From: Frankia alni ACN14a
GTDB taxonomy: Bacteria > Actinomycetota > Actinomycetes > Frankiales > Frankiaceae
NCBI RefSeq assembly: GCF_000058485.1
Contig: NC_008278.1
Span: forward strand, 3,652,962 to 3,716,961
Reading direction: 5' to 3'
DNA: 64,000 bases
Part shown: positions 3,499-58,822 of the stretch, one piece after another
How positions within the stretch are numbered: position 1 is the first letter of the stretch
Layout of the letters: each line of letters opens with the position of its first letter
Notes under the pieces: model-generated
What the model saw: only the letters and a program-made list of their open reading frames with translations
Told to the model about the DNA's origin: nothing
The model's database searches: none
Translations under genes and position numbers: made by a program

Positions 3499-3512
3499 TA
3501 ACACTGCCGTCA
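3499..3512. promoter_or_regulatory. Putative shared operator, site 1
   Basis: TAACA-CTGC-CGTCA differs at one position from TGAC[A/G]-N4-[C/T]GTCA. It lies 155 bases upstream of the leftward hydratase pair, in the gap before the phosphotransferase stop. Weaker evidence than the exact sites. Confidence 0.4.
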
Positions 3513-3570
3513 TTCTCCGTGGGCGTCTCCGCGGGCGCCTGTCCGCGGGCGGTGCGGTTCAGGCGGCGGT

Positions 3571-4647
3571 TCAGGCGGCGACGCGGTCGAGGCCGCGGCG
3601 GATCATCCTGATGGTGCGGCGGGCGTAGGCGGAGGCGACCCGTTCCGGCAGCCCGCCGCTGGTCATCAGCAGCACGCCGAGGCGGCTGTTGATCAGCGTC
3701 ATGACGGTGGCGGCGAGCAGTTCGTAGTAGTCGATGTGCTCGACCGGCCGGCCGGACAGCTCCTGGTAGCGGGCGATGATCGCGGCCCGGTCGGGCACGC
3801 CCTCCAGCCGGGTCAGGCGCTGCGCCTCGCAGAGGAAGTCCTCGAACATCAGCCACCAGCCGAGGTCGATGCCGGGCGGGCCGACGGTGGCCGTCTCCCA
3901 GTCGAACATCGCCTGCACGGACTCCTCGGCGCCGAAGCTGATGTTGCCGACCCGGGCGTCGCCCCACACGATGCCGGCGGAGGAGTCGTCGGGGCGCTCG
4001 CGCAGCAGGTGGTCCACGGCGGCGGCGACGGTCTCGGGCTCCCAGCGCAGGCTCGGCTGCGCCCAGGTGTGCCAGTCGCGCAGCCCCGCCAGGTAGCGGT
4101 CGAGCGCGGTGCCGGTGCCCTCGGGCGTCAGGAAGTCGAAGCCGTCGTGCACGTCGATGCGGTGCAGTGCGACCAGGGCGGCCAGCGCGTTGTCGTGCAT
4201 CACCGACCGCTGCGCCGGGCTGAGTTCGACCGTCCAGCCCTCGGCGTGCCAGCTCGGGACGTCGCCGGGCACCCGGCCGTCGACCCGGCCCATCAGGTAG
4301 AACGGCGAGCCCAGCACGGTGGGATCGGGCTCGATGTACCAGATGGTCGGCACCGGCACGCCCGGGTGCGGGGCGAGCGCCTGCATGATCCGGGCCTGGC
4401 GGACCGCGTCGGGGGTCACGAAGAGCTGGTGGCCGGTGGGCTCGATGCGCAGCACGAGGTCCTCGGCGCGGCGCGGGCCGTCCGGCGGGGTCCAGGCCAG
4501 GTGCAGGTAGAGGGTCTCGTTGGAGTAGCCGGCCTTCGGCGAGGTCAGGGGCGAGATCTCCACGTCGGTGGCGCCGTGCCGATCCCGCAGCCACCCGGCC
4601 AGGACCTCCCGGGTCTCCTCGAGATCGCGTCGTGCCGTGGTGGCCAT
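3571..4647 (-). CDS. Phosphotransferase-fold protein (APH/ACAD10-like)
   Basis: This 358-residue protein belongs to the aminoglycoside-phosphotransferase/choline-kinase superfamily. ATG 4647 follows an AAGGAG ribosome site. The N-lobe has LVLRIEP, the ATP-lysine region with Arg in place of Lys. The catalytic loop reads VWGDARVGNISF, with Trp replacing the usual His of HGD, and is followed by the metal-binding FDWETATVGPPGIDLGWW. Such proteins often sit beside acyl-CoA dehydrogenases in actinobacteria, and the related ACAD10/11 domain phosphorylates 4-hydroxyacyl-CoA. Antibiotic resistance is therefore less likely than a role in acyl or hydroxy-acyl metabolism, though this is inference. It is divergent from the LLM gene across a palindromic operator. 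Confidence 0.85.
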   Translation of the reverse strand: MATTARRDLEETREVLAGWLRDRHGATDVEISPLTSPKAGYSNETLYLHLAWTPPDGPRRAEDLVLRIEPTGHQLFVTPDAVRQARIMQALAPHPGVPVPTIWYIEPDPTVLGSPFYLMGRVDGRVPGDVPSWHAEGWTVELSPAQRSVMHDNALAALVALHRIDVHDGFDFLTPEGTGTALDRYLAGLRDWHTWAQPSLRWEPETVAAAVDHLLRERPDDSSAGIVWGDARVGNISFGAEESVQAMFDWETATVGPPGIDLGWWLMFEDFLCEAQRLTRLEGVPDRAAIIARYQELSGRPVEHIDYYELLAATVMTLINSRLGVLLMTSGGLPERVASAYARRTIRMIRRGLDRVAA

Positions 4648-4712
4648 CCTGACTCCTTCCGCCCGCGTGTCCCGGTTGTCGACCGCCCGGACCGGCTGAT
4701 CGCCCAAATACT

Positions 4713-4726
4713 AGACACGGATGTCA
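4713..4726. promoter_or_regulatory. Putative shared operator, site 2
   Basis: AGACA-CGGA-TGTCA has one mismatch to the consensus. It lies in the 89-base gap between the divergent phosphotransferase and LLM genes, 11 bases before the LLM start, where a bound repressor could block both promoters. Confidence 0.5.
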
Positions 4727-4736
4727 GAATAGGGGC

Positions 4737-5834: not shown

Positions 5835-5861
5835 TCCGCGCGGGTACTGTTTGCACATCGG

Positions 5862-5875
5862 TGACATGAACGCCA
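5862..5875. promoter_or_regulatory. Putative shared operator, site 3
   Basis: TGACA-TGAA-CGCCA has one mismatch to the consensus and lies upstream of the aldehyde dehydrogenase. Taken alone it is within chance expectation. Confidence 0.35.
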
Positions 5876-5983
5876 GAATTAAGTGATCATACGGTCGGGC
5901 GGGAGCCCGGGCGTCGTCCTCCTCGGGCCGGTCCGGTCGTGGCCCGGCCGCCCGACCTGATCATCAGTGGGAAAGAGACCTCC

Positions 5984-7429
5984 TTGTACACCCACGAGAA
6001 TCTCTTCATCGGCGGCTGGGTGCCGCCGGCCTCGTCCAGGGTGATCGACGTGTTCTCCCCGGCGACCGAGGAGCCGATCGGGCGCGTGCCGAGCGCCTCG
6101 ATCGCCGACGTCGACGCGGCGGTGGCCGCCGCCCGCGCCGCCTTCGACACCGGCCCCTGGCCGGCGCTCGACCCGGCCGAGCGCGCGCAGATCGTCGGCC
6201 GGCTCGGCAAGGCGATCCGGGCGCGGGCGGAGGAGTTCGCCGATCTGATCTCCGCGGAGGTCGGCTCGCCACGGGCGTGGTCGACCCTCGGCCAGGTCGG
6301 GATCGCCACCGCCGTGTTCGCCACCTACAGCGGCATCGGACGCAGCCACGAGTGGGAGACGACCCGCAAGGGCGGCTTCGGCGGCCCGGTGCGGGTGCGC
6401 CAGGTGCCCGTCGGCGTGGTCGGCGCGATCGTGCCGTGGAACGCGCCGCTGTTCGTCGCCGCCCTCAAGCTCGCCCCGGCACTGCTGGCCGGCTGCACCG
6501 TCGTGCTCAAGCCGGCCCCCCAGACCCCCCTGCACACCTACCTGCTCGCCGAGGCGGCCGAGGCGGCGGGCCTGCCCCCGGGCGTGCTGTCCATCGTCCC
6601 CGGCGAGGCCGCGGCCAGCGAGCACCTGGTCCGCCACCCCGGCGTCGACAAGATCAGCTTTACCGGGTCGACGGCCATCGGCCGCCACATCGGCGAGCTG
6701 TGCGCGCGCGACCTGCGCCGCTGCACGCTGGAGCTCGGTGGCAAGTCGGCGGCGATCCTGCTGCCCGACGTCGACCTCGGCACGAGCACCGTCGAGGCGA
6801 TCGTCGGCGGGGCGATGTCCAACGGCGGGCAGATCTGCGTCTCCCAGACCCGCGTGCTCGCCCCCCGCGAGCGCTATGACGAGGTCGTCGACGCGCTCGG
6901 CGCCCGCATCGGCGCGCTCACCGTCGGCGACCCGCGCGACCCGGCCACCGAGGTCGGCCCGCTGATCTCCAGCCAGGCCCGCGAGCGGGTCGAGGGCTAC
7001 CTGAGTTCCGCCGAGGCCGACGGCGCCCGCCTGGTCACCGGCGGCGGTCGGCCCAAGGGCCTCGACCGCGGCTGGTACGTGGAGCCGACCCTGTTCGCCG
7101 ACGTCGACAACGGCATGCGGGTCGCCCGCGAGGAGATCTTCGGCCCGGTCATGGTCGTGATCGGCTACGACGGCGTCGACGACGCGGTGCGCATCGCCAA
7201 CGACTCCGACTACGGCCTCGCGGGCGCGGTGTGGACGACCGACATCGCCGCCGGCGAGGCGGTCGCCGGGCGCATCCGCGCCGGCGGCGTCGGGGTGAAC
7301 TCCAGCGCCGGAATGGATCTGGGCAGCCCGTTCGGCGGGTTCAAGCAGTCCGGCATCGGCCGCGAGGGCGGTCCGGAGGGGCTGGCGGCCTACACCGAGT
7401 ACCAGTCGATCATCCTGCCGGCGGGCTGA
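5984..7429 (+). CDS. NAD(P)-dependent aldehyde dehydrogenase
   Basis: This protein has about 481 residues from TTG 5984, which sits behind GGAAAGAG and places the family start (YTHENLFIGGWV) at the N-terminus; GTG 5939 would add 15 residues. It oxidises an aldehyde to the acid. All key elements are present: VGAIVPWNAPL, the coenzyme-binding FTGSTAIGRHIG, the general-base glutamate in [10 protein letters not shown], the nucleophilic cysteine in GGQICVSQTRV, and EEIFGPV. It lies 107 bases before an alcohol dehydrogenase, so the pair could take an alcohol through aldehyde to acid. A palindromic operator lies upstream. Confidence 0.93.
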   Translation: MYTHENLFIGGWVPPASSRVIDVFSPATEEPIGRVPSASIADVDAAVAAARAAFDTGPWPALDPAERAQIVGRLGKAIRARAEEFADLISAEVGSPRAWSTLGQVGIATAVFATYSGIGRSHEWETTRKGGFGGPVRVRQVPVGVVGAIVPWNAPLFVAALKLAPALLAGCTVVLKPAPQTPLHTYLLAEAAEAAGLPPGVLSIVPGEAAASEHLVRHPGVDKISFTGSTAIGRHIGELCARDLRRCTLELGGKSAAILLPDVDLGTSTVEAIVGGAMSNGGQICVSQTRVLAPRERYDEVVDALGARIGALTVGDPRDPATEVGPLISSQARERVEGYLSSAEADGARLVTGGGRPKGLDRGWYVEPTLFADVDNGMRVAREEIFGPVMVVIGYDGVDDAVRIANDSDYGLAGAVWTTDIAAGEAVAGRIRAGGVGVNSSAGMDLGSPFGGFKQSGIGREGGPEGLAAYTEYQSIILPAG

Positions 7430-7536
7430 CCCCCAGGCGGGCCGACCGGCCGCCGCCCCCAGCACCGAACCACCGACCAGTACCGGATCGCCGACCAGGA
7501 GCGGACCGCCGGTAGCGACGAGAGGACCACACGACA

Positions 7537-8667: not shown

Positions 8668-8723
8668 TCCGTCCCGCTCGCCTGCCCGGCTCGCCCCCCC
8701 CGGGTCCCGCCCTCCCCACGTCT

Positions 8724-8779: not shown

Positions 8780-8860
8780 CGCCGCCACCGTCCGAACGAC
8801 CACCGGAGCGCGCCGCACCCGTCCCGCGGTGCCGCCGCACAGCACGAGGAGAACCGGCCC

Positions 8861-16907: not shown

Positions 16908-18014
16908 TCAGGTCCACCCGGCGAGGACCTCGGCCACGGTGACCGCGGTGCGCGGCGGGACCCGCGGCGCGGCGGGGACGCTGCGCGAGAACCGCGGCGC
17001 GGGGGCGGGTTGCGTCACGCCGGCGACGTCGATCAGGACCTCTCGGGCGGCCATGTGCGGGTGCGCGGTGGCCTCGTCGAAGTCCAGCACCGGGGTGACG
17101 CAGGCGTCGAGGGGGTCGAACACGGCCGCCCACTCGTCGCGGGTGCGCCCGGCGAAGGCCTTGGTGAACGCCTCGCGCAGCTCCGGCCAGCGGGCCCGGT
17201 CGTCCTGGCCGGGCAGCGTGGCCGGGTCGAGGCCAAGACCGGTGACGAACGTGGCGTAGAAGCGGGGCTCGAGCGCGCCGACGGCCATGTAGCGCCCGTC
17301 GGCGGTGGCGTAGACATCGTAGAACGGCGCGCCGGTGTCGAGGCGGTTGGAACCGCGCTCGTCGTTCCAGCGGCCCCGCCCGCGCAGCCCCCAGACCATG
17401 TGCGCGAGCAGACTCGCGCCGTCGACGATGGCCGCGTCGATGACCTGGCCGCGCCCCGAGCGCTCCCGCTCGACCAGCGCGGCGAGGATGCCCACCACCA
17501 GGTAGGTCGAGCCGCCGCCGAAGTCGCCGACCAGGTTCAGCGGCGGCAGCGGCGGCTCGCCGGCGCGGCCGACGGCGTTGAGCACGCCGGTGATCGACAG
17601 GTAGTTGATGTCGTGGCCGACCCGGTCCGCCAGCGGTCCCTGCTGGCCCCAGCCGGTCATCCGCCCATAGACCAGCCGCGGGTTGCGCCGCGCGCAGTCG
17701 TCGGGGCCGAGGCCGAGGCGCTCGGTGACGCCGGGACGGAAGCCCTCGATCAGCACGTCGGCGCCGGCGATCAGGTCCAGCACGCCGTCGCGGGAGGCGG
17801 GATCGCCCAGGTCGGCCTCGACGAGGCGGCGCCCGCGCTGCACCGGCTCGGCCGGCACGCCCGGCGCCGGCACGGACCCCGGCCGGGCCACCCGGACCAC
17901 GTCCGCGCCCAGGTCGGCGAGCATCATCGCCGCGTGCGGGCCGGGACCGATCCCGGCGAGCTCGACTACCCGGATGCCGGCGAGTGGGCCCGCGGCGCTC
18001 GTCCCTTCGGGCAA
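16908..18014 (-). CDS. CaiB/BaiF family protein, 2-methylacyl-CoA racemase type
   Basis: This 368-residue class III CoA-transferase-fold protein resembles mycobacterial MCR/AMACR. The racemase catalytic residues are conserved in spacing: His134 in GHDINYLS and Asp164 in [10 protein letters not shown], 30 residues apart as in MCR His126/Asp156. Racemases invert 2R-methylacyl-CoA esters so that acyl-CoA dehydrogenases can act, which suits the acyl-CoA dehydrogenase next downstream. The assigned start is TTG 18014 ([10 protein letters not shown]) behind GGAGGAGGG; the downstream [16 protein letters not shown] is the true fold start. CoA transfer instead of racemisation remains possible. Confidence 0.88.
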
Positions 18015-18382
18015 CGCCCGTCCCTCCTCCTGGTTCCCGCCCGTGCGCCGGGCGCCGGAAGGGATCGTCGCGCCGGCCTTCGCCGGGCGGGGTCTGGGTT
18101 CAGGTGGGCTCAGTCGAGCTCATCTGACACCATGTTTATAGCATCGGTGCCCCGTTGCAGGCATTTTATGATCTTCAATGGGCCATGGTTCTGGCATCTT
18201 CGTCGGCCGCCGAGGCGTAGCCGGTTGCGGGGCGCTTCGCGGGTCGGCGGCGGATGCGTGGGAGAGCGCCTCCATGGCTCTTCCACAGGGTTCGACCGTC
18301 CGATTTATCCCTGAGGAAGAGACAGGTAGCGCCGCTCCCAGGCACCTCGCCGCGCGGGGGCGGGGGTGGCAGACCGGGCTGG
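18015..18382. other. Intergenic region upstream of the racemase gene
   Basis: No gene was recognised. At 18125-18137 a degenerate palindrome TGACA-CCA-TGTTT lies beside an AT-rich TTTATAG. This is a weak relative of the shared operator with a 3-base spacer. The stretch should hold the leftward promoter for the racemase, dehydrogenase and thioesterase genes. Confidence 0.45.
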
Positions 18383-19990
18383 CTAGGCGCTGAGGGTGAA
18401 GCCGGTGTAGCCCTCCGCGGCGACGGCGGCGCAGCGCTTGTGGTAGCGGCCGACCCCGCCGACGTAGGGCATGAAAACCCGCGGCCGGCCCGGGATGTTG
18501 GCCCCCAGGTACCAGGAGTTCGCCTGCGGGTAGAGCGTGCGCGCGGCGGCCTCGTTGACGTGCGCGACCCAGTCCTCCTCGGCGGCGGGGTCCGCCTCGA
18601 TGGTGGCCAGGCCGCGGGCGTCGAGGTGGGCCAGGCAGTCGCCGATCCAGTCGACGTGCTGCTCCAGGGAGACGAAGGCGTTGGAGATCACCGAGGGGCT
18701 CCCGGGGCCCGCCACGACGAACAGGTTCGGGAACCCGCTTATCCCCAGGCCCAGGTAGGTGCGCGGTCCGTGCGCCCAGTGGTCGGCGAGCCGGCGCCCG
18801 CCGCGGCCGCGGATGTCCATCGCCAGCAGTGCCCCGGTCATCGCGTGGAAGCCGGTGGCGTAGACGAGGGTGTCCAGCTCGTGTACCCGCCCGCCGGTCC
18901 GCACCCCGGTCTCGGTGATCTCGGTGATCGGGTCGCGGCGGACGTCGACGAGGGTGACGTTGTCGCGGTTGAACGTGTCGTAGTAGTCGGTGTCGACGCA
19001 GATCCGCTTGGTGCCGATCGGGTGGTCGGTCGGCGTCAGCGTCGCGGCGACCTGGGGGTCGTGCACGATCTGACGGATCTTGTCGCGGACGTAGTCGGCG
19101 GCGAGGTCGTTGGCCGCCGGATCGAAGATGAGGTCGTCGAAGGCGGCCATGTACTCGAAGCCGCCCAGCCCCCAACGCGCGGAGAACTCCCGGTCGCGCT
19201 CCTCGGCCGAGGCGGTGAGGGCGTGGACGCGGTTCTGGCGCAGCAGCATCCCGCCGAACGAACGCCGGGCCCGCTCGCGGTACTCGCTGTAGTGCGCCTT
19301 GCGCTCGCGGGCCAGCTCCGGGTCCAGCGGCACGTTGAACCCCTGGACGCTGAAGTTCGCGCTGCGCTGGAACACGGTCAGATGGCCGGCGACCCGGGCG
19401 ATGAGCGGGATGCACTGGATGCCCGAGGCGCCGGTGCCGACCACTCCCACCCGCTGGCCGGCCAGGTCGACCTCCTCGTCCGGCCAGGTCGCGGTGTGCA
19501 GGACGCGCCCGGCGAAGCGGTCGGCCCCCGGGATGTCGGGGATGTTGGGCACGGACAGGCACCCGGTCGCCATCACGCAGAACCGGGCGCGGACCCGTTG
19601 ACCGCGGTCGGTGGTGACCCGCCAGCGTCCGTCGGCCTCGTCGAACGTCACCGACGCGATCCGGGTGGCGAACTCGATGTCGCGGCGCAGGTCGAAGCGG
19701 TCGGCCACGTGGCGGGCGTAGGCGAGCATCTCCGGCTGCTCGGGGAAGCGCCGGCTCCACTGCCAGTCCTGCTGGAGCTCCTCGGAGAAGGAGTAGGAGT
19801 ACTCCAGGCTCTCGATGTCGCAGCGGGCGCCCGGGTAGCGGTTCCAGTACCACGTGCCGCCGACGTCGTCGGCCGCGTCGTACGCCCGCACCCGCAGCCC
19901 CTGCCCGCGCAGGCGGTGCACCGCGTACATGCCGGCGAAGCCCGCGCCGACGATCAGAACGTCGAGATCCTCGTCATGCACCAGCACCAC
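18383..19990 (-). CDS. FAD monooxygenase, Baeyer-Villiger type
   Basis: This 535-residue class B flavoprotein starts at GTG 19990 with GGAGG upstream. FAD-binding GAGFAG is at residues 15-20, and the second, NADPH-type Rossmann GTGASG at 185-190. Between them is the Baeyer-Villiger fingerprint FAGRVLHTATWP (159-170). Also typical are DDVGGTWYWNRYPGARCD and LVYATGFHAMTG. The enzyme would insert oxygen next to a ketone, giving an ester or lactone. Homologues act on cyclic ketones, steroids and aryl ketones. It is divergent from a SnoaL-like gene across an exact copy of the shared palindrome. Confidence 0.92.
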   Translation of the reverse strand: MVLVHDEDLDVLIVGAGFAGMYAVHRLRGQGLRVRAYDAADDVGGTWYWNRYPGARCDIESLEYSYSFSEELQQDWQWSRRFPEQPEMLAYARHVADRFDLRRDIEFATRIASVTFDEADGRWRVTTDRGQRVRARFCVMATGCLSVPNIPDIPGADRFAGRVLHTATWPDEEVDLAGQRVGVVGTGASGIQCIPLIARVAGHLTVFQRSANFSVQGFNVPLDPELARERKAHYSEYRERARRSFGGMLLRQNRVHALTASAEERDREFSARWGLGGFEYMAAFDDLIFDPAANDLAADYVRDKIRQIVHDPQVAATLTPTDHPIGTKRICVDTDYYDTFNRDNVTLVDVRRDPITEITETGVRTGGRVHELDTLVYATGFHAMTGALLAMDIRGRGGRRLADHWAHGPRTYLGLGISGFPNLFVVAGPGSPSVISNAFVSLEQHVDWIGDCLAHLDARGLATIEADPAAEEDWVAHVNEAAARTLYPQANSWYLGANIPGRPRVFMPYVGGVGRYHKRCAAVAAEGYTGFTLSA

Positions 19991-20030: not shown

Positions 20031-20044
20031 TGACGGTCACGTCA
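20031..20044. promoter_or_regulatory. Putative shared operator, site 4 (exact)
   Basis: TGACG-GTCA-CGTCA has perfectly complementary arms. It lies between the divergent monooxygenase (start 19990) and SnoaL-like (start 20222) genes. Confidence 0.6.
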
Positions 20045-22415: not shown

Positions 22416-23636
22416 TCAGTTCTCCACGCAGACGGGCTTGTCCCCCTTGGGGGTCGTCAGCTTGCCGCCCACGACCTTGGCGTACCAGTTGCAGGCGCCG
22501 ACCTTGCTGGGCTGGCCCTTCGCGAACGTCAGCGGCGGCGACCACTCGCCGAGGGACTGGCCGTTCAGCGCGTACAGGCCGTCGAGGATCTCGGCGCTGG
22601 TCGGCGTCGCGGAGACGTTCTTCGCCGCGGCGGCGAAGAACAGCCCCGCCTGCCAGCCGCGGCTGGCGAAGCCGTCCGGGTCGTTCTTCGTGTACTGCTT
22701 CAGGGCGGCCTTGAAATCGGCCAGGTAGGGCTTGTCGCCGAACCACAGCGGGGCCCCGGAGGTCAGCCATGCGCCCTCGCTGGCCGGCTGGATGAGGTTG
22801 GGCTGGAACACGCCGCCGGAGAACACGTAGGTCGGCTGGTAGCGCTGCGTCGAGCAGTCCTTGATGAGCCGCTCGGTGACCTGGGCGGGCACGTTCGTGA
22901 TGACGGCCTTCACGCCCGCGCTGCGCAGCGACAGGCACTGCGAGGTGTAGTTCGGCGCCGAGGCCGAGGCGGTCTGCACACCCGCCGAGGCGATCCCGAG
23001 GCGGGCGGAGATGCCGGAGATCAGGCCGTTGGCCTCCGCGCACGCGGCCTGCTCGGCGCAGACGACGGTGCCGAACTTCGGCGAGCCGGCGAGCTTCACG
23101 CTGTACACCTCGCCGGTGAGGTACTCGACCGAGTTGGAGGTCGCGGCGAAGAACATCGGCGACTTGCCGTACTGGGCCGTCGTGGTGATCCCGCCGATGA
23201 CGGGGATGTTGTGCTGCTCGACGTAGCTGCGCCAGGAGCCGTCGGTGGCGCCGGCGAAGTTGCCGACGAGGGCGAGGACCTTGTCCTGCTCGACGAGCTG
23301 GTGGACGGCGGCGATCGACTTGGTCGGGTCGCCCTGGTCGTCCCGGCTGATCACCTCGACCGGGTGGCCGGCGATGCCGCCGTGCGCGTTCACCCACTTC
23401 GACCAGGCGACGAGGGCGTCGAGCCCGCGCTGGTTCTGCGGGCCGAAGGCGCCGCTGTACAGGCCGACGTTACCGATCTTCAACGGTGTTCCGGTGGGTG
23501 CCGCCGTGGCGTTGGCGGGCGGGGCGTCGGCTTTCGCCCCACCATCGCTGCTGCCCCCACAGGCCGACACGGTGAGTAATAAAGCGGCGAAGGCTGCGAT
23601 ACAGCCGGACAGGGTCCGTCGTCGCCTCGGTGCCAT
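22416..23636 (-). CDS. Branched-chain amino-acid-type ABC solute-binding lipoprotein
   Basis: This 406-residue exported lipoprotein has a basic n-region, a hydrophobic core and the lipobox LTVSACGG with Cys26 as the lipidation site. A type I periplasmic-binding fold of the Leu/Ile/Val (LivJ) family follows: LKIGNVGLYSGAFGPQNQRGLDAL, GHPVEVISRDDQGDPTKSIAAV and LVGNFAGATDGSWRSYVEQHNIPVIG. Proteins of this family in catabolic clusters often bind aromatic or acyl carboxylates and not amino acids. No permease or ATPase gene accompanies it here. An exact copy of the shared palindrome lies 180 bases upstream. Confidence 0.92.
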   Translation of the reverse strand: MAPRRRRTLSGCIAAFAALLLTVSACGGSSDGGAKADAPPANATAAPTGTPLKIGNVGLYSGAFGPQNQRGLDALVAWSKWVNAHGGIAGHPVEVISRDDQGDPTKSIAAVHQLVEQDKVLALVGNFAGATDGSWRSYVEQHNIPVIGGITTTAQYGKSPMFFAATSNSVEYLTGEVYSVKLAGSPKFGTVVCAEQAACAEANGLISGISARLGIASAGVQTASASAPNYTSQCLSLRSAGVKAVITNVPAQVTERLIKDCSTQRYQPTYVFSGGVFQPNLIQPASEGAWLTSGAPLWFGDKPYLADFKAALKQYTKNDPDGFASRGWQAGLFFAAAAKNVSATPTSAEILDGLYALNGQSLGEWSPPLTFAKGQPSKVGACNWYAKVVGGKLTTPKGDKPVCVEN

Positions 23637-23815: not shown

Positions 23816-23829
23816 TGACGTCAATGTCA
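23816..23829. promoter_or_regulatory. Putative shared operator, site 5 (exact)
   Basis: TGACG-TCAA-TGTCA fits the consensus exactly. It is upstream of the leftward solute-binding lipoprotein gene, suggesting that substrate uptake is co-regulated with catabolism. Confidence 0.58.
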
Positions 23830-26448: not shown

Positions 26449-26609
26449 ATTCTGGGTTCGGGGTCGGCTGGGGTTTCGGCTGCGCCGCCGGGTGTGGGCT
26501 TCCGGCGTCGCACCCCGCCATGGTTGATCTTGGGTTGGGTTTTTGTCGGTGGTGGGTGGGACGATCGTCGTGTCCGTTGATCGATGACACCTCTGGCCCG
26601 GTGATCCTG

Positions 26610-27808
26610 ATGAGTGCAGCGTCCACGTCTCCTCTTCCTCTGCCTGTTCCCTCGGCCTCGTCGGCGTCGTCGGATGCGTCCGCGCTGATCGGGGTGGATG
26701 TGGAGGCCGCGTCGTTGGGGGAGGTGGAGGAGGTGATCTGCCGGTGGGCGGGGCGGATTGCCGCGGCGAGCTGTGGCTGGCTGCTGGCGGTCGCGGCGTT
26801 CGACCGCCGCGGTGGCTGGTCGGGGATGGGGATGGGTTCGTGTGCGCACTGGCTGGCCTGGCGGTGCGGTGTCGGCCTGCGTACGGCGCGGGAGCAGGTG
26901 GCGACGGCGCGGGCGTTGGAGGGTCTTCCGATGGTGCGGGCGGCGTTCGCGGCGGGCACGGTGTCGTATGCGAAGGTGCGGGCGGTGACCCGGGTCGCCG
27001 AGCCCGCGACGGAGGAGCTGTGGCTGGCCCGTGCCCGACGGTGCTCGGCCGGTCAGGTGGAACGGCTGGTCCGTTCCTACCGGCAGGCCAACGGTGATCC
27101 GAAGGTTCGGCGGGCCGTACGGCGGGTGGCGTGGACGTTCGACGGCGACGGGATGCTGTGTCTGCGGGCGGTCCTGTCCCCGGACGAGGGCGCCCGGTTG
27201 ATCGCCGCGTTGGACGCCGCCCGGACCAGTCTCGAGGACACCACGGCCCTACCCGGCGACCATCCCCCAGCAGACGGCGGCACGGGGGGCGACGTGGGTG
27301 AGGTGCCCGCGGATGGGGAGAGGGTCGTGGCGGCGCGGGATCGGCAGCGGGACGCCGATGCATCCGGGCGTTGCTCACCGACCCGGACGGCAATCCGTTG
27401 CATCTCGGGCGGCGGCAGCGTCAGCCCGGGCAGCGGCTTCGTGACGCGGTCTACCTGCGCGACCAGGGGCGCTGCCAGTACCCGGGCTGCGGTCACACCC
27501 GCTGGTTGCACCTGCATCACCTCACCTGGTGGGGCCGCGGGGGTGACACCGACATCGACCGGCTGCTGCTGCTCTGTTCGACCCATCATCGGGCGGTGCA
27601 CGACGACGACATCAGCCTCGGCCGCGACGCGGACGGGACCGTCACCGCGCGGACCGTCGACGGCCGTGTCCTCGTCGCAGCACCACCGGTCCTGCCCGGG
27701 TCCGAGCCGGCGGGGATCCTCGCCCGCGCGACCCGCCACGTCGACCCCACCGCGATCCACACCCGCGACGGAGGACGCCTCCGCCGCGGTCGCCTCGTGG
27801 GGAGGTGA
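26610..27808 (+). pseudogene. Broken 13E12-family DUF222/HNH gene
   Basis: The N-terminal part (ATG 26610 to about 27300) reads as a DUF222 region with CGVGLRTAREQVATARALEG, AGTVSYAKVRAVTRVAEP and VLSPDEGARLIAALDAAR. The HNH part is in a different frame: from about 27362 it reads IRALLTDPDGNPLHLGR, then CQYPGCGHTRWLHLHHLTWW and LLLLCSTHHRAVHDDD, ending at 27808. Only about 45 codons separate the two, whereas related proteins have a longer middle section. A frameshift and probably an internal deletion near 27290-27365 therefore inactivated the gene. It is of a different subfamily from the two intact 13E12 genes in the window. Confidence 0.8.
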
Positions 27809-36581: not shown

Positions 36582-37189
36582 TGTGAGACCTCCGTCTCTG
36601 ATGGAACTGGTGCGGGGGCGGTGCCGGTTGCCCTGGGCGAGTCGGGGGTGGCGGCGTCGGTGGGTGCGGTGGGTGCGGAGGGTTCGGTGGTACTGAGGGC
36701 TGCGGTGGTACTGAGGGCTGCGGCGGGTACCGCCACCCCGCCGACGACCCGAAAGCCGACGGTGACGGGCCGGCCGATCGCGGGCGCGGACCCGGTGGCG
36801 GTGAGCGTGGTCATGATCAGTCGATGCCCGCTGGTGAGCTCGACATCCACGACGGGGTAGGGCTCGGTAACCCGGACCAGGCCCGGCTCGCGCCGGTGCA
36901 CGAGGGTCACCGCATGCACGGTGCCGGCGCGCTCGACCGGGCGCCAGCGGATGTCGGTGGCACCACAGCCGTCGCAGGCCCGCTGCTCCAGCTCGAGGGC
37001 CAGCCCGCAGTCCGCGCAGAACGGCAGCGTCAGTTCGCCCGCGGCGGCGCCGGCGTAGAGCGGCGCGAGCGACCCGTCGGCCAGCGGCGCCAGCGCCGCG
37101 TCGACCAGCCAGTCCTCGGCGTCCGGCGCGTCCGGCGCATCCGGCGCGGCGAGCGCGGCGGGGATGGCGGCGTCGGTGTTCGGGCTCAT
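36578..37189 (-). CDS. DUF35 zinc-ribbon/OB-fold protein, partner of the thiolase-fold protein
   Basis: This 203-residue protein has an N-terminal linker rich in Ala/Asp/Pro. A zinc ribbon FCADCGLALELEQRACDGCG (CxxC-CxxC) follows, then an OB-fold with AGTVHAVTLVHRREPG and PYPVVDVEL. The last 55 residues are a low-complexity Ala/Thr/Pro tail. DUF35 proteins form complexes with thiolase-fold partners. In the steroid pathway the DUF35 part of ChsH2 activates the aldolase Ltp2. Here the ATG overlaps the thiolase-fold gene stop (ATGA), supporting a stoichiometric complex. It is also coupled to the following Rieske alpha gene. Confidence 0.88.
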   Translation of the reverse strand: MSPNTDAAIPAALAAPDAPDAPDAEDWLVDAALAPLADGSLAPLYAGAAAGELTLPFCADCGLALELEQRACDGCGATDIRWRPVERAGTVHAVTLVHRREPGLVRVTEPYPVVDVELTSGHRLIMTTLTATGSAPAIGRPVTVGFRVVGGVAVPAAALSTTAALSTTEPSAPTAPTDAATPDSPRATGTAPAPVPSETEVSQ

Positions 37190-38352
37190 CGGGACGGCTC
37201 CAGGTCGAGGATCAGGCAGGCGTGGTGGTCGACCCGGCCGCCGATGCCGCCGACGAGGGCCGTGCTCGCCCCGGGCACCTGGCGTGCCCCGCCGGTGCCG
37301 CGCAGCTGCACCACGGCCTCGGCCAGCGGCGTCATCCCCTGCAGGTAGAACCCGGAGAGCTGGCCGCCGCCGGTGTTGACCGGCAGGTCGCCGCCGGGGG
37401 CGGTCGCGCCGGAGCGGACCACCTTGCCCGCCTGCCCGGGCTCGACCAGGCCGTACTCCTCCAGCAGCAACAGGGTCACCACGCTGAACGGGTCGTAGAG
37501 CTCGACGACGTCGAGGTCGGCGCGGGTGAGCCCGGCCATGGCCAGTGCGCCGTCGACGGCGGCCCGACCGCCGCCGAACCAGGACTCGCCCGGGGCGCGC
37601 CGCCGGCGCATCGGGTGGGCCTGGCCCATCCCGCGCACGTGGATGCGCGGGGCCGGGCCGGGCGTGGCCTCGCCGCTGACGACGAGGGCGACCGCGCCGT
37701 TGACCGGCCGGGCGCAGTCGAGCACGCGCAACGGGGTGGAGATCATGCGGCTGGCGAAGTAGCCCTCGGCGTCCAGCGGCTTGCGCACCACCGCGTCGGG
37801 GTTGCCCAGCGCCCACGCACGGGTCGACACGGCCACGGCGCACAGGTCCTCGGGGTCGCCGCCGGACACCGCGAAGTAGCGCGAGGCGAGCAGGGCGTAG
37901 GTGGGAACCGAGCCGAGCACGCCGCTGGCCCGCTCCAGCCCGCGCGCCCCGTCGCTGCCGCCGCTGTGGGCGTAGGTCGACCCGGACGTGCCGCCCGCGC
38001 GCAGCGGCGCGTCGGCGAAGACGCAGACCACGGTGCTGGCCAGGCCCGCCCGGATGGCGAGCACCGCCCGCTGGATCATCGCGACCGCGGTGGCGCCCTT
38101 GATCTCCACGTGCTCGAGCAGGCGCAGGTCGCCGAGGCCGCCCTGGCGGGCCAGCGCCACGCCCAGCCGGTCGGGGCGGACCCCCTGGCTGGAGTTGACG
38201 AGCAGGCCGTCGACGTCACGGGCGGTGAGCCCGGCGTCGGCGAGCGCACCCGCGACGGCCTCGATGGCGAGATCGACGGGCACACCGCCAGGAGAAAGCG
38301 ACATGGCTGTCAGACCGAGGCCGACAACCGCGGGTTCCAGGGGCGGGGCCAT
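37186..38352 (-). CDS. Thiolase-fold protein, SCP-x/Ltp2-like, probable aldolase
   Basis: This 388-residue thiolase-fold protein has VVGLGLTAMSLSPGGVPVDLAIEAV, ARDVDGLLVNSSQ, ALFAD-like VVCVFADAPLRAG, DLDVVELYDPFSVVTLLLLEEYGL and PVNTGGGQLSG. The nucleophilic Cys of true thiolases (CxSG on the N-terminal helix) is missing: the region reads HVEIKGATAVAMIQ. Cys-less members with a Tyr in the ELYD block include Ltp2, which performs retro-aldol cleavage of 3-hydroxyacyl-CoA side chains together with a DUF35 protein. It overlaps both neighbours by 1-4 bases. A true thiolytic activity is therefore less likely. Confidence 0.85.
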   Translation of the reverse strand: MAPPLEPAVVGLGLTAMSLSPGGVPVDLAIEAVAGALADAGLTARDVDGLLVNSSQGVRPDRLGVALARQGGLGDLRLLEHVEIKGATAVAMIQRAVLAIRAGLASTVVCVFADAPLRAGGTSGSTYAHSGGSDGARGLERASGVLGSVPTYALLASRYFAVSGGDPEDLCAVAVSTRAWALGNPDAVVRKPLDAEGYFASRMISTPLRVLDCARPVNGAVALVVSGEATPGPAPRIHVRGMGQAHPMRRRRAPGESWFGGGRAAVDGALAMAGLTRADLDVVELYDPFSVVTLLLLEEYGLVEPGQAGKVVRSGATAPGGDLPVNTGGGQLSGFYLQGMTPLAEAVVQLRGTGGARQVPGASTALVGGIGGRVDHHACLILDLEPSR

Positions 38353-45972: not shown

Positions 45973-47424
45973 ATGGTCTCGAATCCGGAGTCTCCGAGCC
46001 GGCTTCATGCGCTGGCCGATGAATCGACGGCGATGTCCGCGCGGATAGATGCAATGGTCGACGGTCCGGTGTGGTCGCTGTCCGACGCGGGTCTGCTGGA
46101 ATTGCTGCTGGCTTGTTCAGTGGCTTTGACGCGGCTGGCGGCCTTTCGTCTTCAGATTGTCGCCGAGGTGCACGGCCGTGGGTTGGCGCGGCGTGCTGGC
46201 GCCTGCGACACCGTCGCCTTGCTGCGCGAACGTCTGCGGGTCCGCGCGGCGGATGCCAGCCGTCTGGTCGATGTTGCGGTGGCCGTAGACGGTCCCTTGG
46301 CGGCGACGGGTAAGCGGCTGGGAGCGGGGGAGATCAGCGTCGAGCAGGCGCAGGTGATTGTGGCGGGCATGCGCTCGCTACCGACCACGGTCACCGTGGA
46401 CGTGCGGCGACGGGCTGAAGCGTTTCTCCTGCGTCAGGCGGACGAGTTCGACCCGACCGCCCTGGCTCGCCTGGCCCGCCACCTCCGCGAGACCCTGGCC
46501 TGGGCTGACGCCCACTCCGGCGACGATACTCTCGACCCGGCTCCGGCCGGTGGCAGCGAGGATGACGACTCTGCTCGCGGCGAGCCCGGCGACGGCGAGG
46601 GTGGCAGTGACGGCGGGGGCGATGGTCAGTCCAGTGGCCCCGACGATGCTGCCGCTGCGGGAGGGGAGGACCCAGCGGGGCGGCGAAGATTGTCGATCTC
46701 CGAGTTGCCGGGCGGCATGACTCGAATCAGCGGCGAGCTCGACCCTGAAGCGGCAGCCCTGCTCCGCATCGCGCTGGACCCCCTCGCGGCGCCGCGCCCG
46801 GCCGTCGACGGTGCGCTCGACCCGCGTAGCCCCGCCCGCCGGCGCGCCGATGCCCTCGTCGACCTGGTCACCCGCACACTCGACGCCGCCATGCTGCCTG
46901 TGGGTGGCGGTGTTCGCCCGCATCTGACCGTGACGATCCCCTGGTCGACAATGGTCGGTCGATCCGGCGTGCCGGCGACGACTGGCTGGGGGCAGCCCCT
47001 GCCCCGCGAGGTCCTACGTCGCCTGGCCTGTGACGCATCGGTCAGCCGCATCATCCTCGACCCCGCCGGTGTCCCCCTCGATGTTGGTCGAACCCAGCGC
47101 ACCGTCACCGCGGACATCCGCCGCGCGCTGGTCGCCCGCGACAACGGCTGCGCCTTTCCGACGTGCGATCGTCCGGCGAGCTGGACCGAGGCGCATCACA
47201 TTCGACACTGGATCGTCGGGGGCCACACCTCGCTGGACAACTGCGTGCTCCTCTGTGGCCATCACCACCGGGTCATCCACCACCAGGGTTGGACCGTTCG
47301 GCTCGGGCCCGACCGACGCCCCGAATTCCTGCCTCCGGCCTGGATCGACGCCAGCCGCACCCCTCGCCGAAACCCCTACTCACGTCATCCGCACGACCTG
47401 ATCTACGGCATCGCCGCCGGATGA
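45973..47424 (+). CDS. 13E12-family DUF222/HNH endonuclease-domain protein
   Basis: This 483-residue paralogue of the protein at 12209-13642 has a DUF222 region with LACSVALTRLAAFRLQIVAEVHGRG, an acidic low-complexity linker (about 185-225, Gly/Asp/Ser-rich), then SARRR-type block DPRSPARRRADALVDLVTRTL and the HNH domain. The HNH part has CAFPTCDRPASW, EAHHIRHW and LLCGHHHRVIHHQGW. Nuclease activity is plausible but unproven for the family. The LexA box 31 bases upstream and a hairpin after the stop suggest a separate, damage-induced transcription unit. Confidence 0.9.
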   Translation: MVSNPESPSRLHALADESTAMSARIDAMVDGPVWSLSDAGLLELLLACSVALTRLAAFRLQIVAEVHGRGLARRAGACDTVALLRERLRVRAADASRLVDVAVAVDGPLAATGKRLGAGEISVEQAQVIVAGMRSLPTTVTVDVRRRAEAFLLRQADEFDPTALARLARHLRETLAWADAHSGDDTLDPAPAGGSEDDDSARGEPGDGEGGSDGGGDGQSSGPDDAAAAGGEDPAGRRRLSISELPGGMTRISGELDPEAAALLRIALDPLAAPRPAVDGALDPRSPARRRADALVDLVTRTLDAAMLPVGGGVRPHLTVTIPWSTMVGRSGVPATTGWGQPLPREVLRRLACDASVSRIILDPAGVPLDVGRTQRTVTADIRRALVARDNGCAFPTCDRPASWTEAHHIRHWIVGGHTSLDNCVLLCGHHHRVIHHQGWTVRLGPDRRPEFLPPAWIDASRTPRRNPYSRHPHDLIYGIAAG

Positions 47425-48830: not shown

Positions 48831-49469
48831 TCAGCGCGCGGTGGAAGAGTCGGGCAGCGGCGGCAGGGCCGGCGGCTGCGGGCCGTGGCCGCGTCGATAG
48901 GCCAGCAGCGTGCGGCGAAAACTGATCACCTCGTCGCCGTCCTGGTTGTAACCGTGGGTGCGGACCTCCACCACCCCGACGTCCGGTCGGGACTTGCTCG
49001 GCCGCAGCCCGAGCACGATCGAGCGGGAGTAGACCGTGTCGCCCTCGAAGACCGGATGGGGGAGGCGCACCTCGTCCCAGCCCAGGTTGGCCATCACGTT
49101 CTGCGAGACATCTGTGACGCTCTGGCCGGTGACGAGGGCGAGGGTGAGGGTCGAGTTCACCAGCGTGCGGCCGAACCCCGTCTGCGCGGCGTAGTGCTGG
49201 TCGAAGTGCAGGCGCGCCGTGTTCTGGGTGAGCAGCGTGAACCAGGTGTTGTCGGTGGCGGTGATCGTCCGGCCGAGTGGATGGTCGTAGACGTCGCCGA
49301 CGGCGAAGTCCTCGAAGTAGCGCCCCTCCCAGCCGCGCCGTGCAACGAGCGGGGGCGTCGCCGCACCCGTCGCGCCGTTGGGGGAAGGCGCGGGACTGCC
49401 GGATTCTGCGCGGGTGGCGTCCCCGCCGGCGGCGGGGGCGTTCGTCGACGGATTGGTCGGTGTGGTCAT
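48831..49469 (-). CDS. MaoC-like hydratase, mesaconyl-CoA hydratase-like
   Basis: This 212-residue protein starts at ATG 49469. The N-terminal 45 residues are a Pro/Ala/Ser linker, then one hot-dog domain: GRYFEDFAVGDVYDHPLGRT, TDNTWFTLLTQNTARLHFD, GFGRTLVNSTLTLALVTGQS and PVFEGDTVYSRSIVLGLRPSKSR. The TQNTARLHFD block and the GDTVYS ending resemble mesaconyl-CoA and beta-methylmalyl-CoA dehydratases more than the classical R-specific enoyl hydratases. Water addition to a branched enoyl-CoA is the likely reaction. It is co-directional with the acyl-CoA dehydrogenase that follows 93 bases later, and divergent from another across an exact shared palindrome. Confidence 0.88.
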   Translation of the reverse strand: MTTPTNPSTNAPAAGGDATRAESGSPAPSPNGATGAATPPLVARRGWEGRYFEDFAVGDVYDHPLGRTITATDNTWFTLLTQNTARLHFDQHYAAQTGFGRTLVNSTLTLALVTGQSVTDVSQNVMANLGWDEVRLPHPVFEGDTVYSRSIVLGLRPSKSRPDVGVVEVRTHGYNQDGDEVISFRRTLLAYRRGHGPQPPALPPLPDSSTAR

Positions 49470-49568: not shown

Positions 49569-49582
49569 TGACAAGGGCGTCA
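49569..49582. promoter_or_regulatory. Putative shared operator, site 6 (exact)
   Basis: TGACA-AGGG-CGTCA fits the consensus exactly. It sits between the divergent MaoC (start 49469) and acyl-CoA dehydrogenase (start 49616) genes, directly after a TAGTAT that could be a -10 element. Confidence 0.6.
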
Positions 49583-54683: not shown

Positions 54684-54702
54684 GCTCCGAGCCGCAGCGG
54701 GC

Positions 54703-55629: not shown

Positions 55630-55717
55630 ACGAACTCCCTGGGTGGTAGCTGGAACGTGTGCGTCGCGGGAACGGGTGCGCGTCGCCGGAACGGCGCGGG
55701 GCTGCGCCGTCGCGGTA

Positions 55718-56149: not shown

Positions 56150-56195
56150 GGGTGTCCTCCTCAGGATCAGTGGCCGCGGTCCGCGGGGCCTCGGA

Positions 56196-57179
56196 TCAGT
56201 AGCCGCGGTACTCGGGGGAGCGGCGCTGGACGAACGCGGTCACGCCTTCGGTCGAGTCGTGGGCGTGCGACTGCAGCTCCTGGGCCATGCCCTCGGCCAG
56301 GAAGGCGGCGGCCCGGTCGACGTCCGGGGACTCGTTGAACAGCCGCTTGGTCAGCGCGATGGCGCTCGTCGCGGCGCCGGCGAGGCGCTCGGCGAACCCC
56401 GCGGCGGTGGCGGCGAGCTCCTCGGCGGGCACGACCCGGTTGACCAGGCCGAGGGCGAGCGCCTCGCTCGCGGGCAGCTTCTCGCCGAAGAACGCCAGCT
56501 CCTTGGCCTTCTGCATGCCGATGCGCCGGGGCAGCAGGTAGGCGCCGCCGGCGTCGACGACCAGGCCGCGCAGCACGAACGACTCGACGAAGACCGCGCC
56601 CTCCGCCGCCACGACGAGGTCGCTGGCATACGCCAGGTGCGCGCCGAGGCCGGCCGCCGGTCCCTGGACGACGGCGATGACCGGCTTGCCGCAGTCGAGG
56701 ACCGAGGACACCAGCCGCTGCGCACCGGTCATGATGCGCCGCATGGCGTCGGTGACCCGCTTCTCGGCGCCCTGCGCGCGGCTCGCCGCGATCCCGGTGA
56801 CGTCGGCGCCGGAGCAGAAGTGCCGCCCGTTCGAGGCGAGCACCACCACCCGGACCTCCGGGTCGGCGTCGGCCTGGGCGAGCAGCTCGATGATGACGTC
56901 GCGCATCGCCGGCTGGATCGCGTTCGCGGCGTCCGGCCGGTTCAGGGTGATCGTCGCGATCCCCCCCTCGACCGAGTGCAGCACGGTGGTCCCGAGCGGG
57001 CCGGCCGGCGCGGACCCGGCCTGGACAGCCCCGGCCTGGCCGGACCCGGCCTGGACGGCTGCGGCCGGAGTGGACGCGCCCGGGGTGGGCGTGGCCGCGG
57101 CCCCGGGCGCCCCGGGGGACGCCGAGGCGTCCGAGGCCGCGGGGACGGTGGCGGCGCTGCCGGGCGCCGGCGCGCTCAT
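56196..57179 (-). CDS. Enoyl-CoA hydratase/isomerase with long disordered N-terminus
   Basis: This 327-residue protein has a normal crotonase core from about residue 62: LGTTVLHSVEGGIATITLNRPDAAN, SNGRHFCSGADVTGIA, VQGPAAGLGAHLAYASDLVVAAE, and a C-terminal SPEYRGY. The first 60 residues are Ala/Pro/Gly/Ser with short repeats (QAGSGQAGAVQAGS) and probably linker; a start nearer residue 60 is possible, but ATG 57179 is the only strong one. The usual second catalytic Glu region reads VLRGLVVDAGGAYLLPRRIG, where Asp replaces Glu, suggesting isomerase or another branch. The gene is read from the promoter containing palindrome 57340-57353. Confidence 0.86.
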   Translation of the reverse strand: MSAPAPGSAATVPAASDASASPGAPGAAATPTPGASTPAAAVQAGSGQAGAVQAGSAPAGPLGTTVLHSVEGGIATITLNRPDAANAIQPAMRDVIIELLAQADADPEVRVVVLASNGRHFCSGADVTGIAASRAQGAEKRVTDAMRRIMTGAQRLVSSVLDCGKPVIAVVQGPAAGLGAHLAYASDLVVAAEGAVFVESFVLRGLVVDAGGAYLLPRRIGMQKAKELAFFGEKLPASEALALGLVNRVVPAEELAATAAGFAERLAGAATSAIALTKRLFNESPDVDRAAAFLAEGMAQELQSHAHDSTEGVTAFVQRRSPEYRGY

Positions 57180-57339
57180 CGGACCTGCCGCCGCGGCGCG
57201 GCGGGTGCTGAGGGCATGGATGGCTCCTGTTCGTCGGTGCTCGGCGGGGATCCGACCCCGCCGTGCCCGCTTGCGGACCCGTCGGCGACGGGTTCGGCAC
57301 TCCCTGATCGAGCGGTCCCGGCTTGGGTGACCCTTGATC

Positions 57340-57353
57340 TGACAGTGATGTCC
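57340..57353. promoter_or_regulatory. Putative shared operator, site 7
   Basis: TGACA-GTGA-TGTCC has one mismatch, in the outermost base. It lies 161 bases upstream of the crotonase gene that heads the leftward crotonase, DUF35 and SDR operon. Confidence 0.48.
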
Positions 57354-57444
57354 ACTGTCCTGCCGTGGCGTGCTCTCCGGCGGAGTGTGTCCCGCCGGTG
57401 TGTATCCCGCCGGTGCGTGCCCCGGTGGGTGGCGACCGGCACGC

Positions 57445-58218
57445 TCAGCCCTCGCCGGCGGCGGCGTCGCCGTTGGCGCTGAAGCCGCCGTCGGCCGTCA
57501 CCGTCGCACCGGTGACGAAGGCGGCCTCGTCGGAGGCGAGCCACGCGGCCGTGTACGCGATGTCCATCGGGTTGCCGATGCGGGTGAGCCGTCCGCCGCC
57601 GGTGAGTGCCCCGGAGTCGCCTGCCGAGCTCACGACCCGCCCGACGACGATGGTGTTGGCGCGGATGCCGTCGGCGGCGCCCTCGACGGCCAGCGTGCGG
57701 CTCAGGGAGTTGACGCCGCCCTTGGCCGCGGCGTAGGCGCCGAACCCGGTGAACCCGGCGATGGACTGGCCCGAGGAGACGTTGACGATCGCGGCCCCGT
57801 CGGCCTCGCGCAGGTACGGCCAGGCGTACTTCGACGCCCAGAACACGTTGCCCGTCAGCGTGCCCAGCAGGATGTGGTTCCACTCCTCGGTCGTGTAGTC
57901 GGCGATCTTCTTGATCGTCGAGGCGACGGCGTCGGTCGGGGCGGCGTTGTTCACCAGCGTGCTCAGGCCGCCGAAGCGCGTGGCCACCGCGTCGACCGTG
58001 GCGTGCACGCTGGTCTCGTCGGTGACGTCGAGGGGGAAGAACTCCGCCTCGCCGCCGGCGTCGCGGATGCGCGCGACGACCTTCTCACCCTTGGCGACGG
58101 TGCGGCCGGTCACGGCCACCCGTGCCCCCTCGGCGGCGAACAGCTCCGCCATGGAGCGGCCGATACCGCGGGTCGATCCGGATATGAGCACGGTCTTGCC
58201 CGCGAGGCGGGTACCCAT
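57445..58218 (-). CDS. Short-chain dehydrogenase/reductase
   Basis: This 257-residue classical SDR has the cofactor loop VLISGSTRGIGRSMAELFAAEG, NNAA in LVNNAAPTDAVAS, and the catalytic SGQSIAGFTGFGAYAAAKGGV (Ser, Tyr, Lys). It ends with VTADGGFSANG. Gly-rich loop TGxxxGIG and an Arg after the second strand (VTGRTVAKGE) suggest NADP(H) preference. A dihydrodiol dehydrogenase for the Rieske oxygenase or a hydroxyacyl-CoA dehydrogenase are both possible. It is divergent from the LLM gene with an exact palindrome between them. Confidence 0.9.
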   Translation of the reverse strand: MGTRLAGKTVLISGSTRGIGRSMAELFAAEGARVAVTGRTVAKGEKVVARIRDAGGEAEFFPLDVTDETSVHATVDAVATRFGGLSTLVNNAAPTDAVASTIKKIADYTTEEWNHILLGTLTGNVFWASKYAWPYLREADGAAIVNVSSGQSIAGFTGFGAYAAAKGGVNSLSRTLAVEGAADGIRANTIVVGRVVSSAGDSGALTGGGRLTRIGNPMDIAYTAAWLASDEAAFVTGATVTADGGFSANGDAAAGEG

Positions 58219-58822
58219 CGTTGTGGCTTCCTTCCCTGACCTCGCCGTCGGGCTCCCCGCAGCCGAGGGGTCCGGCGGCGGGCCGCGGGAACGGACGAGA
58301 TCGGGCGGCCCGGGCGGCGGGCCGCGCTCCCCGCCGTCGGGCGGGTGTCTCGGCAGCGGCCCGCGGCGCCGACACTTGTGACGTGGCTGTCAGAACAGCA
58401 TAGTGGGTATGGCTGCCCATCCGCCTCCGGAAGCGCCCGCGCCGGACGGAGGCTGGCGCGCCTGGGCCGCGCGGGCGGCCCGAAGCCGGGCCGGAGGTGA
58501 CGCGCATCCGAGCCGTGGCGGCTCGCATCCGCCGGCCCGGGTCGGGCGGCCGGTGTCAGAACAGCCGTGTCCGCGGGCGCCGCGCCCGGCTCCCGGACGG
58601 CGACGCAGGAACCGGGGCGACGCAGGAACCGGACAGCGCCAGAACCCGACGGACGCCGACCCGTGGGACCGGCCGGCTCCCGGTGTACGACGAGCTGCGG
58701 CGCCGACCGGTTCCCGATGCTCGAGGACCCGTGGGGCTGCCCGGTCCGCGGCCGGCGGTGGTGGACGACGAAGGAGCCCGTGGGACCGCCCGGTCCCCGG
58801 CAGGCAACGACGGAAGGTGTCC
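58219..58822. other. 604-base divergent region between SDR and LLM genes
   Basis: The open frame running into the LLM gene is low-complexity Arg/Pro/Ala sequence with no domain, so it looks like leader DNA. It contains the exact operator 58379-58392 with a CATAGT behind it that may be a -10 element. That would give the LLM gene a leader of about 400 bases. Confidence 0.55.
58379..58392. promoter_or_regulatory. Putative shared operator, site 8 (exact)
   Basis: TGACG-TGGC-TGTCA fits the consensus exactly. It lies 160 bases upstream of the leftward SDR and upstream of the rightward LLM gene. Confidence 0.58.

Follow-up and report, generated by a model that had tools for sequence, protein, structure and literature searches.

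Does a short palindrome repeated between catabolic genes mark a single regulon, and which protein would read it? The question is raised by a 64,000-nucleotide stretch of the chromosome of Frankia alni ACN14a (bases 3,652,962-3,716,961 of a single-contig genome of 7,497,934 bases; 72.6% G+C), called the window throughout. An earlier note on the window described the pattern TGACR-N4-YGTCA at eight places, proposed that it ties scattered catabolic genes into one regulon, and named two TetR genes, at 59969 and 63506, as possible binders. The palindromes of the window are very probably operators of D1, a protein with two TetR domains encoded across the end of the window, which would act as the local repressor of a catabolic block of about 200 kb (3.52-3.73 Mb); they belong to one of two kinds of site found in this genome, here called kind A. 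D1 would represent a second family of double-TetR repressors, not closely related to Mce3R; the operator of this family is predicted from dozens of sites spread over several genera, and how two fused TetR domains read DNA becomes directly testable. A candidate regulator and operator are also assigned to a large catabolic block, hitherto uncharacterised, in a plant symbiont that fixes nitrogen; symbiotic Frankia are without genetic tools (PMC8951365).

Enrichment and spacing of the palindrome

Genes were called with a codon-usage gene finder, and expected motif counts in the window were taken from dinucleotide shuffles. The motif TGACR-N4-YGTCA (TGACRNNNNYGTCA) has six exact matches in the window versus 0.20 expected, five of the six being intergenic, and 21 matches with at most one mismatch versus 6.9 expected. 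The coordinates and sequences of all eight sites listed previously (four exact, four with one mismatch) are correct, and all eight are intergenic, five of them (4713, 20031, 23816, 49569, and 58379) between divergent genes by the gene calls used here; the set of four exact copies was incomplete, having overlooked 43926 (coding) and 62366 (intergenic, between divergent genes).

Across the whole genome there are 40 exact copies versus four for a reversed control, and 19 of the 40 lie within 3,521,583-3,864,454, less than 5% of the genome, nearly all between genes. In the 3.48-3.88 Mb region, where 18.5% of the DNA is intergenic, 15 exact sites are intergenic versus four coding (p 2e-8; the alternative count is 16 versus three, as site 3,777,208 touches a predicted gene start), while the counts with at most one mismatch are 47 and 48 (p 8e-12). 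Control DNA totalling 1.2 Mb from the same chromosome, made up of two flanking 400-kb stretches (3.08-3.48 and 3.88-4.28 Mb) and two distant 200-kb stretches, has four intergenic and four coding exact sites in all, with no significant intergenic excess. The comparison of intergenic with coding DNA, which the earlier note had proposed as a check, therefore favours the motif, as does its other check, conservation upstream of orthologues: sites are kept in up to five other Frankia, several of them within diverged flanks. The motif is real and its signal is stronger than had been held. One-mismatch sites had been considered within chance; this does not apply to them as a class, while many single ones are indeed coding noise.

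The spacing is equally specific: TGAC-N6-GTCA is the sole enriched form, with 18 intergenic occurrences versus five or fewer for any other spacing from 0 to 12. This bears on the suggestion that the matches are promoter pieces (TTGACA-like -35 boxes) or, more generally, a product of compositional chance. The sites do lie upstream of genes, and one arm of the second kind of site (kind B, below) resembles TTGAC, but both arms are needed at one fixed spacing, intergenic enrichment is absent from the control DNA, reversed controls are far lower, and Frankia genomes without the block carry only 0-2 sites of the extended pattern described below; a promoter or chance origin is thus very improbable. 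The concentration of nearly half of the exact copies (19 of 40) in under 5% of the genome, with 3.5-3.87 Mb lying half way round the 7.5-Mb chromosome, might instead point to a chromosome-organisation signal of the terminus region. That idea has scarcely any probability left, as the adjoining 3.08-3.48 and 3.88-4.28 Mb stretches show nothing, the sites are intergenic and beside the starts of catabolic genes, and they recur round a D1 homologue at 0.85-1.15 Mb of an 8.3-Mb Streptomyces chromosome. Both the promoter and the terminus readings were rejected.

Candidate regulator

The protein proposed here to read the kind A sites is encoded as follows.

63506-64873, minus strand (locus L027, 16467-17834, minus): D1, 455 amino acids with two TetR_N domains; the part inside the window, 63506-64000, is the C-terminal part

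The two TetR_N stretches of D1 total 111.7 bits versus a cut-off of 24, which places it in the TetR family. Its AlphaFold model has two all-helical halves (mean predicted local distance difference test score, pLDDT, 78; predicted template modelling score, pTM, 0.76), a double-TetR architecture of two complete units that both have a helix-turn-helix (HTH) and ligand-domain helices, and the top fold match is the double-TetR protein Mce3R (PDB 9b7y), with 445 columns at 19% identity. Full orthologues of D1 are 95-98% identical in four other Frankia genomes (G004, G009, G010, and G011) and about 60% identical in Parafrankia, and both HTH regions are nearly invariant between the two groups. As a separate observation, residues 1-20 (MSENEILRRASYGPTSPVVG) are identical in 11 of 11 aligned Frankia and Parafrankia orthologues, an unusual conservation before the first DNA-binding domain.

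A kind A site (TACTCTGACATAGATGTCC) lies over the D1 start codon at 64868-64881, with a degenerate site upstream at about 65047. The start-codon site is kept in six genomes of one genus (g5, mostly named Parafrankia) despite changed sequence further upstream, and in S. sulphureus (D1 homologue 49% identical) the GTG start is covered by an exact palindrome. D1 and its homologues thus carry the predicted operator at their own start in Frankia, Parafrankia, and S. sulphureus, the arrangement of an autoregulated gene. Between the two TetR genes named previously, the evidence picks out the one at 63506, and nothing supports the one at 59969.

The extended pattern TCTGACRNNNNYGTCA has 8-13 copies in Frankia genomes with D1 and 0-2 in seven Frankia without it; a further genome (G003), whose contig ends beside the D1 position, has 12. 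D1 and the catabolic block move together, so this co-occurrence within Frankia is not by itself proof of the link.

Two further double-TetR genes, D2 (3,848,894-3,850,510, minus strand) and D3 (3,858,190-3,859,641, plus strand), encode an N-terminal arm like that of D1 (e.g. YPVSPVIGPEG). No 14-bp site was found at the start of either.

Sites beside homologues in remote genera

Homologues of D1 outside the Frankiaceae, 42-57% identical and found in Pseudonocardia, Streptomyces, Streptosporangiaceae, and Acidimicrobiia, were taken from a genome collection together with as much as 10 kb of sequence to either side, giving 27 loci. The exact motif is intergenic 18 times and coding three times in these loci, in which about 9% of the DNA is intergenic; five other palindromes of similar composition have no intergenic and one coding match in all. 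The N6 spacing is again the sole enriched one, with 27 intergenic occurrences. Flanks of kind A are found in a Streptosporangiaceae metagenome-assembled genome (MAG; ctattcTGACAGTCATGTCAcg), Streptomyces sp. GQFP (ctaatcTGACGTTAATGTCAcc), Acidiferrimicrobium (ggcatcTGACGGCAGTGTCAcc), and an Acidimicrobiaceae MAG (cgattcTGACAGATGTGTCAaa). The 8.3-Mb chromosome of Streptomyces sp. GQFP encodes its D1 homologue at about 0.965 Mb and has nine extended sites, of which seven cluster around that gene, in 0.85-1.15 Mb; the homologue is the only DNA-binding protein recognised in the locus.

The functions of the genes beside the sites recur between the Frankia window and the remote loci. Those in the window encode F420/luciferase-like monooxygenase (LLM) oxidoreductases, an aldehyde dehydrogenase, a Baeyer-Villiger-type monooxygenase, a SnoaL-like protein, a solute-binding protein, an acyl-coenzyme A (CoA) ligase, a MaoC-like hydratase, an acyl-CoA dehydrogenase, an enoyl-CoA hydratase, a short-chain dehydrogenase/reductase (SDR), a flavin reductase, and an HpcH/CitE-like lyase. 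Those in the remote loci encode aldehyde dehydrogenase, FAS1-dehydratase/MaoC pairs, P450, acyl-CoA dehydrogenase, CoA-transferase III, thiolase with a ChsH2-like partner, enoyl-CoA hydratases, SDRs, LigB dioxygenase, and HpcH lyases. These are genes of CoA-thioester catabolism; the substrate, at a guess, is probably cyclic or branched.

Two kinds of site

Alignment of the flanks separates the sites into two kinds. Kind A (3.52-3.73 Mb, including the window) reads WTCTGACR-N4-YGTCAc: one TGAC is preceded by TC (in most cases ATC or TTC), and the opposite GTCA is usually followed by C or A. Kind B (3.77-3.84 Mb) reads TTGAC...GTCAA, often ACTTGACR-N4-YGTCAAGT; all five exact genomic matches to TTGACRNNNNYGTCAA are in 3.777-3.838 Mb, and most recur in other genomes (G003, G004, G009, G010, and G011). 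Of 31 kind A and remote sites, 23 have the TC flank on a single arm and two have it on both (permutation p 0.007), while kind B flanks are more nearly symmetric. An oriented, asymmetric matrix also separates intergenic from coding DNA better than a symmetric one (ratio of 27 versus 12.9 per base at score 14), a comparison that is partly circular because the training sites come from the same region.

The two kinds lie in separate stretches, and what had been proposed as one palindromic regulon is therefore better seen as two adjoining regulons, the window belonging to kind A. The idea of a regulon is upheld, but it spans about 200 kb, reaching well outside the window, adjoins a regulon with a sister motif, and has a motif that is asymmetric outside its core. 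The two regulons share the TGACR-N4-YGTCA core and similar target enzymes; kind B differs in its more symmetric flanks (ACTTGAC...GTCAAGT) and in its candidate regulator. That candidate is a single-domain TetR gene (3788758-3789420) with a kind B site upstream in five Frankia, in genome G034, and in one genome of another family, and its product plausibly reads the kind B motif. Kind B operators in genome positions 3,769,703-3,864,454 (loci L030-L035) adjoin genes for CoA-transferases, acyl-CoA dehydrogenases, AMP ligase, ChsH2-like protein, and glyoxalase. A paralogue of the 3788758 gene, at 3863726-3864403, has an upstream site with kind A-like flanks.

A single-domain TetR for kind B lends some weight to the alternative that the kind A sites are real operators of one regulon read by a regulator other than D1, such as some other TetR of the block, for instance the single-domain one at window 59981-60724; palindromes are the usual targets of TetR homodimers, and some 20 of the 116 TetR_N matches in the genome lie in the block. 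This alternative is unlikely: there is no site near the 59981 gene, the D1 start itself carries one, D1 homologues of other genera, and of another class, are surrounded by the motif, and the Streptomyces sp. GQFP locus has no other recognised DNA-binding protein.

Proposed mechanism

D1 would act as one chain in which two unlike HTH domains form an intramolecular pseudo-dimer, one domain reading TTCTGACR and the other the opposite YGTCA arm. The symmetric core and unlike flanks of kind A fit two unlike HTH domains in one chain; single-domain TetR proteins dimerise and read symmetric palindromes. D1 would occupy promoters across the catabolic block (about 3.52-3.73 Mb), in front of genes for acyl-CoA dehydrogenases, hydratases, LLM/F420 oxidoreductases, SDRs, CoA-transferases, a Baeyer-Villiger-type monooxygenase, a lyase, a solute-binding protein, and an aldehyde dehydrogenase, and would also occupy its own start codon. 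In the presence of an inducer, which is probably a substrate or an intermediate in CoA-ester form, D1 would leave the DNA, so that all block promoters open together; both repression and release by such a ligand are suggested by analogy with the TetR family.

Several points weigh against D1 as the regulator. It is a predicted operator-binding protein, and in Frankia both D1 and the sites could reflect inheritance of the whole gene block. Parafrankia genomes retain D1 and the site at its start, but there are few others within 10-40 kb of it, and some Pseudonocardia loci of more distant homologues (L174-L176) have no site. Of the two arms at the D1 start codon, one is part of the coding sequence, and the other may owe its conservation to being the -10 region of a leaderless promoter. 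The asymmetry is based on 31 sites, and a Frankia-trained gene finder supplied the gene calls in the remote loci.

A wider proposal is tentative, with a probability slightly short of even: that an unnamed double-TetR family, present in Frankia, Parafrankia, Pseudonocardia, Streptomyces, Streptosporangiaceae, and Acidimicrobiia, recognises a half-symmetric operator through an intramolecular pseudo-dimer and controls a catabolic regulon. The sister regulon in Frankia, under a TetR homodimer, would share the core with symmetric flanks, so that flank symmetry alone would separate two adjacent regulons.

Comparison with known repressors

Mce3R of M. tuberculosis (PDB 9b7y) is a double-TetR repressor of lipid and cholesterol-related genes with an asymmetric operator, a 25-bp sequence described as without palindromes and present in two copies 53 bp apart; its cryo-electron microscopy structure, called the first of a duplicated TetR repressor, shows two dissimilar domains from a single chain on an asymmetric operator (PMC11667970). 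D1 resembles Mce3R, its best fold match, in being a single chain of two TetR units with two unlike HTH domains. It differs in that the sequence match is limited to single TetR/HTH stretches, identity in the fold alignment is low, and the candidate operators have an inverted-repeat TGAC-N6-GTCA core and are short pseudo-palindromes spread over about 200 kb. By full-length sequence and by predicted operator, D1 is not an Mce3R orthologue; it belongs to a small group of double-TetR proteins, and its operator is predicted from many genomes. In the literature on double-TetR proteins and on Frankia TetR regulons, only Mce3R was found as a relevant precedent, and a search among open-licence papers found none on bacteria that gives this motif in N notation.

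The KstR, KstR2, and BkaR regulons of mycobacteria are like the proposed D1 regulon in having a local TetR repressor, a palindromic operator, autoregulation, and catabolic targets; their repressors of CoA-linked catabolism are single-domain proteins, while D1 has two domains. The motifs of KstR and KstR2, as the earlier note also held, presumably differ from the D1 sites. D1 scores 42.5 bits against the NCBIfam KstR model, far below the cut-off of 280, and does not belong to that family. BkaR reads GTTA(N)T(N4)A(N)TAAC, unlike the D1 sites (PMC3920632).

Individual sites

Conservation was assessed by aligning the orthologous stretches of as many as five other Frankia. A search identified Frankia torreyi CpI1 and Frankia sp. 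QA3 as near relatives. The sites are listed in window coordinates.

20031-20044, plus strand: kind A, exact (TGACGGTCACGTCA), between a divergent Baeyer-Villiger-type flavin monooxygenase gene (18383-19990, minus) and a SnoaL-like gene (20222, plus; Pfam)
23816-23829, plus strand: kind A, exact, between divergent genes for an ABC-type periplasmic binding protein (22416-23483, minus) and an acyl-CoA ligase (24512, plus)
49569-49582, plus strand: kind A, exact, between divergent genes for a MaoC-like hydratase (48831-49469, minus) and an acyl-CoA dehydrogenase (49616, plus)
58379-58392, minus strand: kind A, exact (TTCTGACAGCCACGTCAC on minus), between divergent genes for an SDR (57445-58218, minus) and an F420/LLM oxidoreductase (58817, plus)
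62366-62379, plus strand: kind A, exact, between divergent genes for a flavin reductase (61445-62032, minus) and an HpcH/HpaI (CitE-like) lyase (62422, plus)
4713-4726, minus strand: kind A, one mismatch (TTCTGACATCCGTGTCT on minus), matrix score 24, between divergent genes for an APH-family phosphotransferase (3571-4647, minus) and an F420/LLM oxidoreductase, TIGR03857 (4779, plus)
5862-5875, minus strand: kind A, one mismatch (TTCTGGCGTTCATGTCAC on minus), matrix score 24, upstream of an aldehyde dehydrogenase gene (5939-7429, plus)
57340-57353, plus strand: kind A, one mismatch (ATCTGACAGTGATGTCC), upstream of an enoyl-CoA hydratase gene (56196-57179, minus)
38299-38312, minus strand: probable kind A, one mismatch (GTCTGACAGCCATGTCG on minus), matrix score 19.8, upstream of a thiolase-like gene (37186-38283, minus)
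18125-18138, plus strand: possible degenerate kind A with a strong left arm (ATCTGACACCATGTTTA), upstream of a CoA-transferase III gene (16908-18014, minus)
3499-3512, plus strand: weak candidate, one mismatch (TTCTAACACTGCCGTCA), upstream of a FAS1-dehydratase-like gene (2796-3344, minus)

Five relatives keep 9 of 10 arm bases of the 20031 site, while its central four bases vary and 38% of flank columns are invariant; at 23816 all 14 bases are invariant in five relatives and the flanks are 39% invariant. The 62366 site is likewise invariant at 14 of 14 positions in four relatives, with flanks at 68%. The 49569 site is invariant in five relatives, but its flanks are 96% invariant too, and the 58379 site is kept in four, the aligned contig of the fifth not reaching it. 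Among the one-mismatch sites, 57340 keeps its left arm in five relatives with only 18% of the flanks invariant, and 38299 keeps 9 of 10 arm bases in four. The arms of 3499 vary in F. torreyi, with 8 of 10 bases kept. An aldehyde dehydrogenase gene adjoins a site in remote locus L150, as it does at 5862.

Two weaker relatives with a 3-base spacer had also been noted, at 18125 and 24385. At 18125 the TTCTGACACTCTGTTTATAGCAT form (TTCTGACAC..TGTTTATAG) is kept in five relatives, with flanks 54% invariant; 24385 was rejected and is probably not a site, because none of the five has its second arm. Both 18125, upstream of the CoA-transferase gene, and about 65047, upstream of D1 and just outside the window, carry a variant in which a strong TTCTGACA arm is paired with a degenerate one (TTCTGACACNNTGTNTW); this variant is conserved in relatives. 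The exact match at 43926 lies inside a CoA-transferase-like gene, and its first T is lost in some relatives, as expected of a chance match.

Other features

An intergenic tandem array with a 15-base period is present at genome positions 3,750,970-3,751,040, and its copies resemble the core with CGAC in place of TGAC. In the window, DUF222-domain proteins are encoded at 45973-47424 (plus strand) and 26520-27800 (plus strand; a weak match), in stretches without such a gene call; these are possibly mobile or decaying genes.

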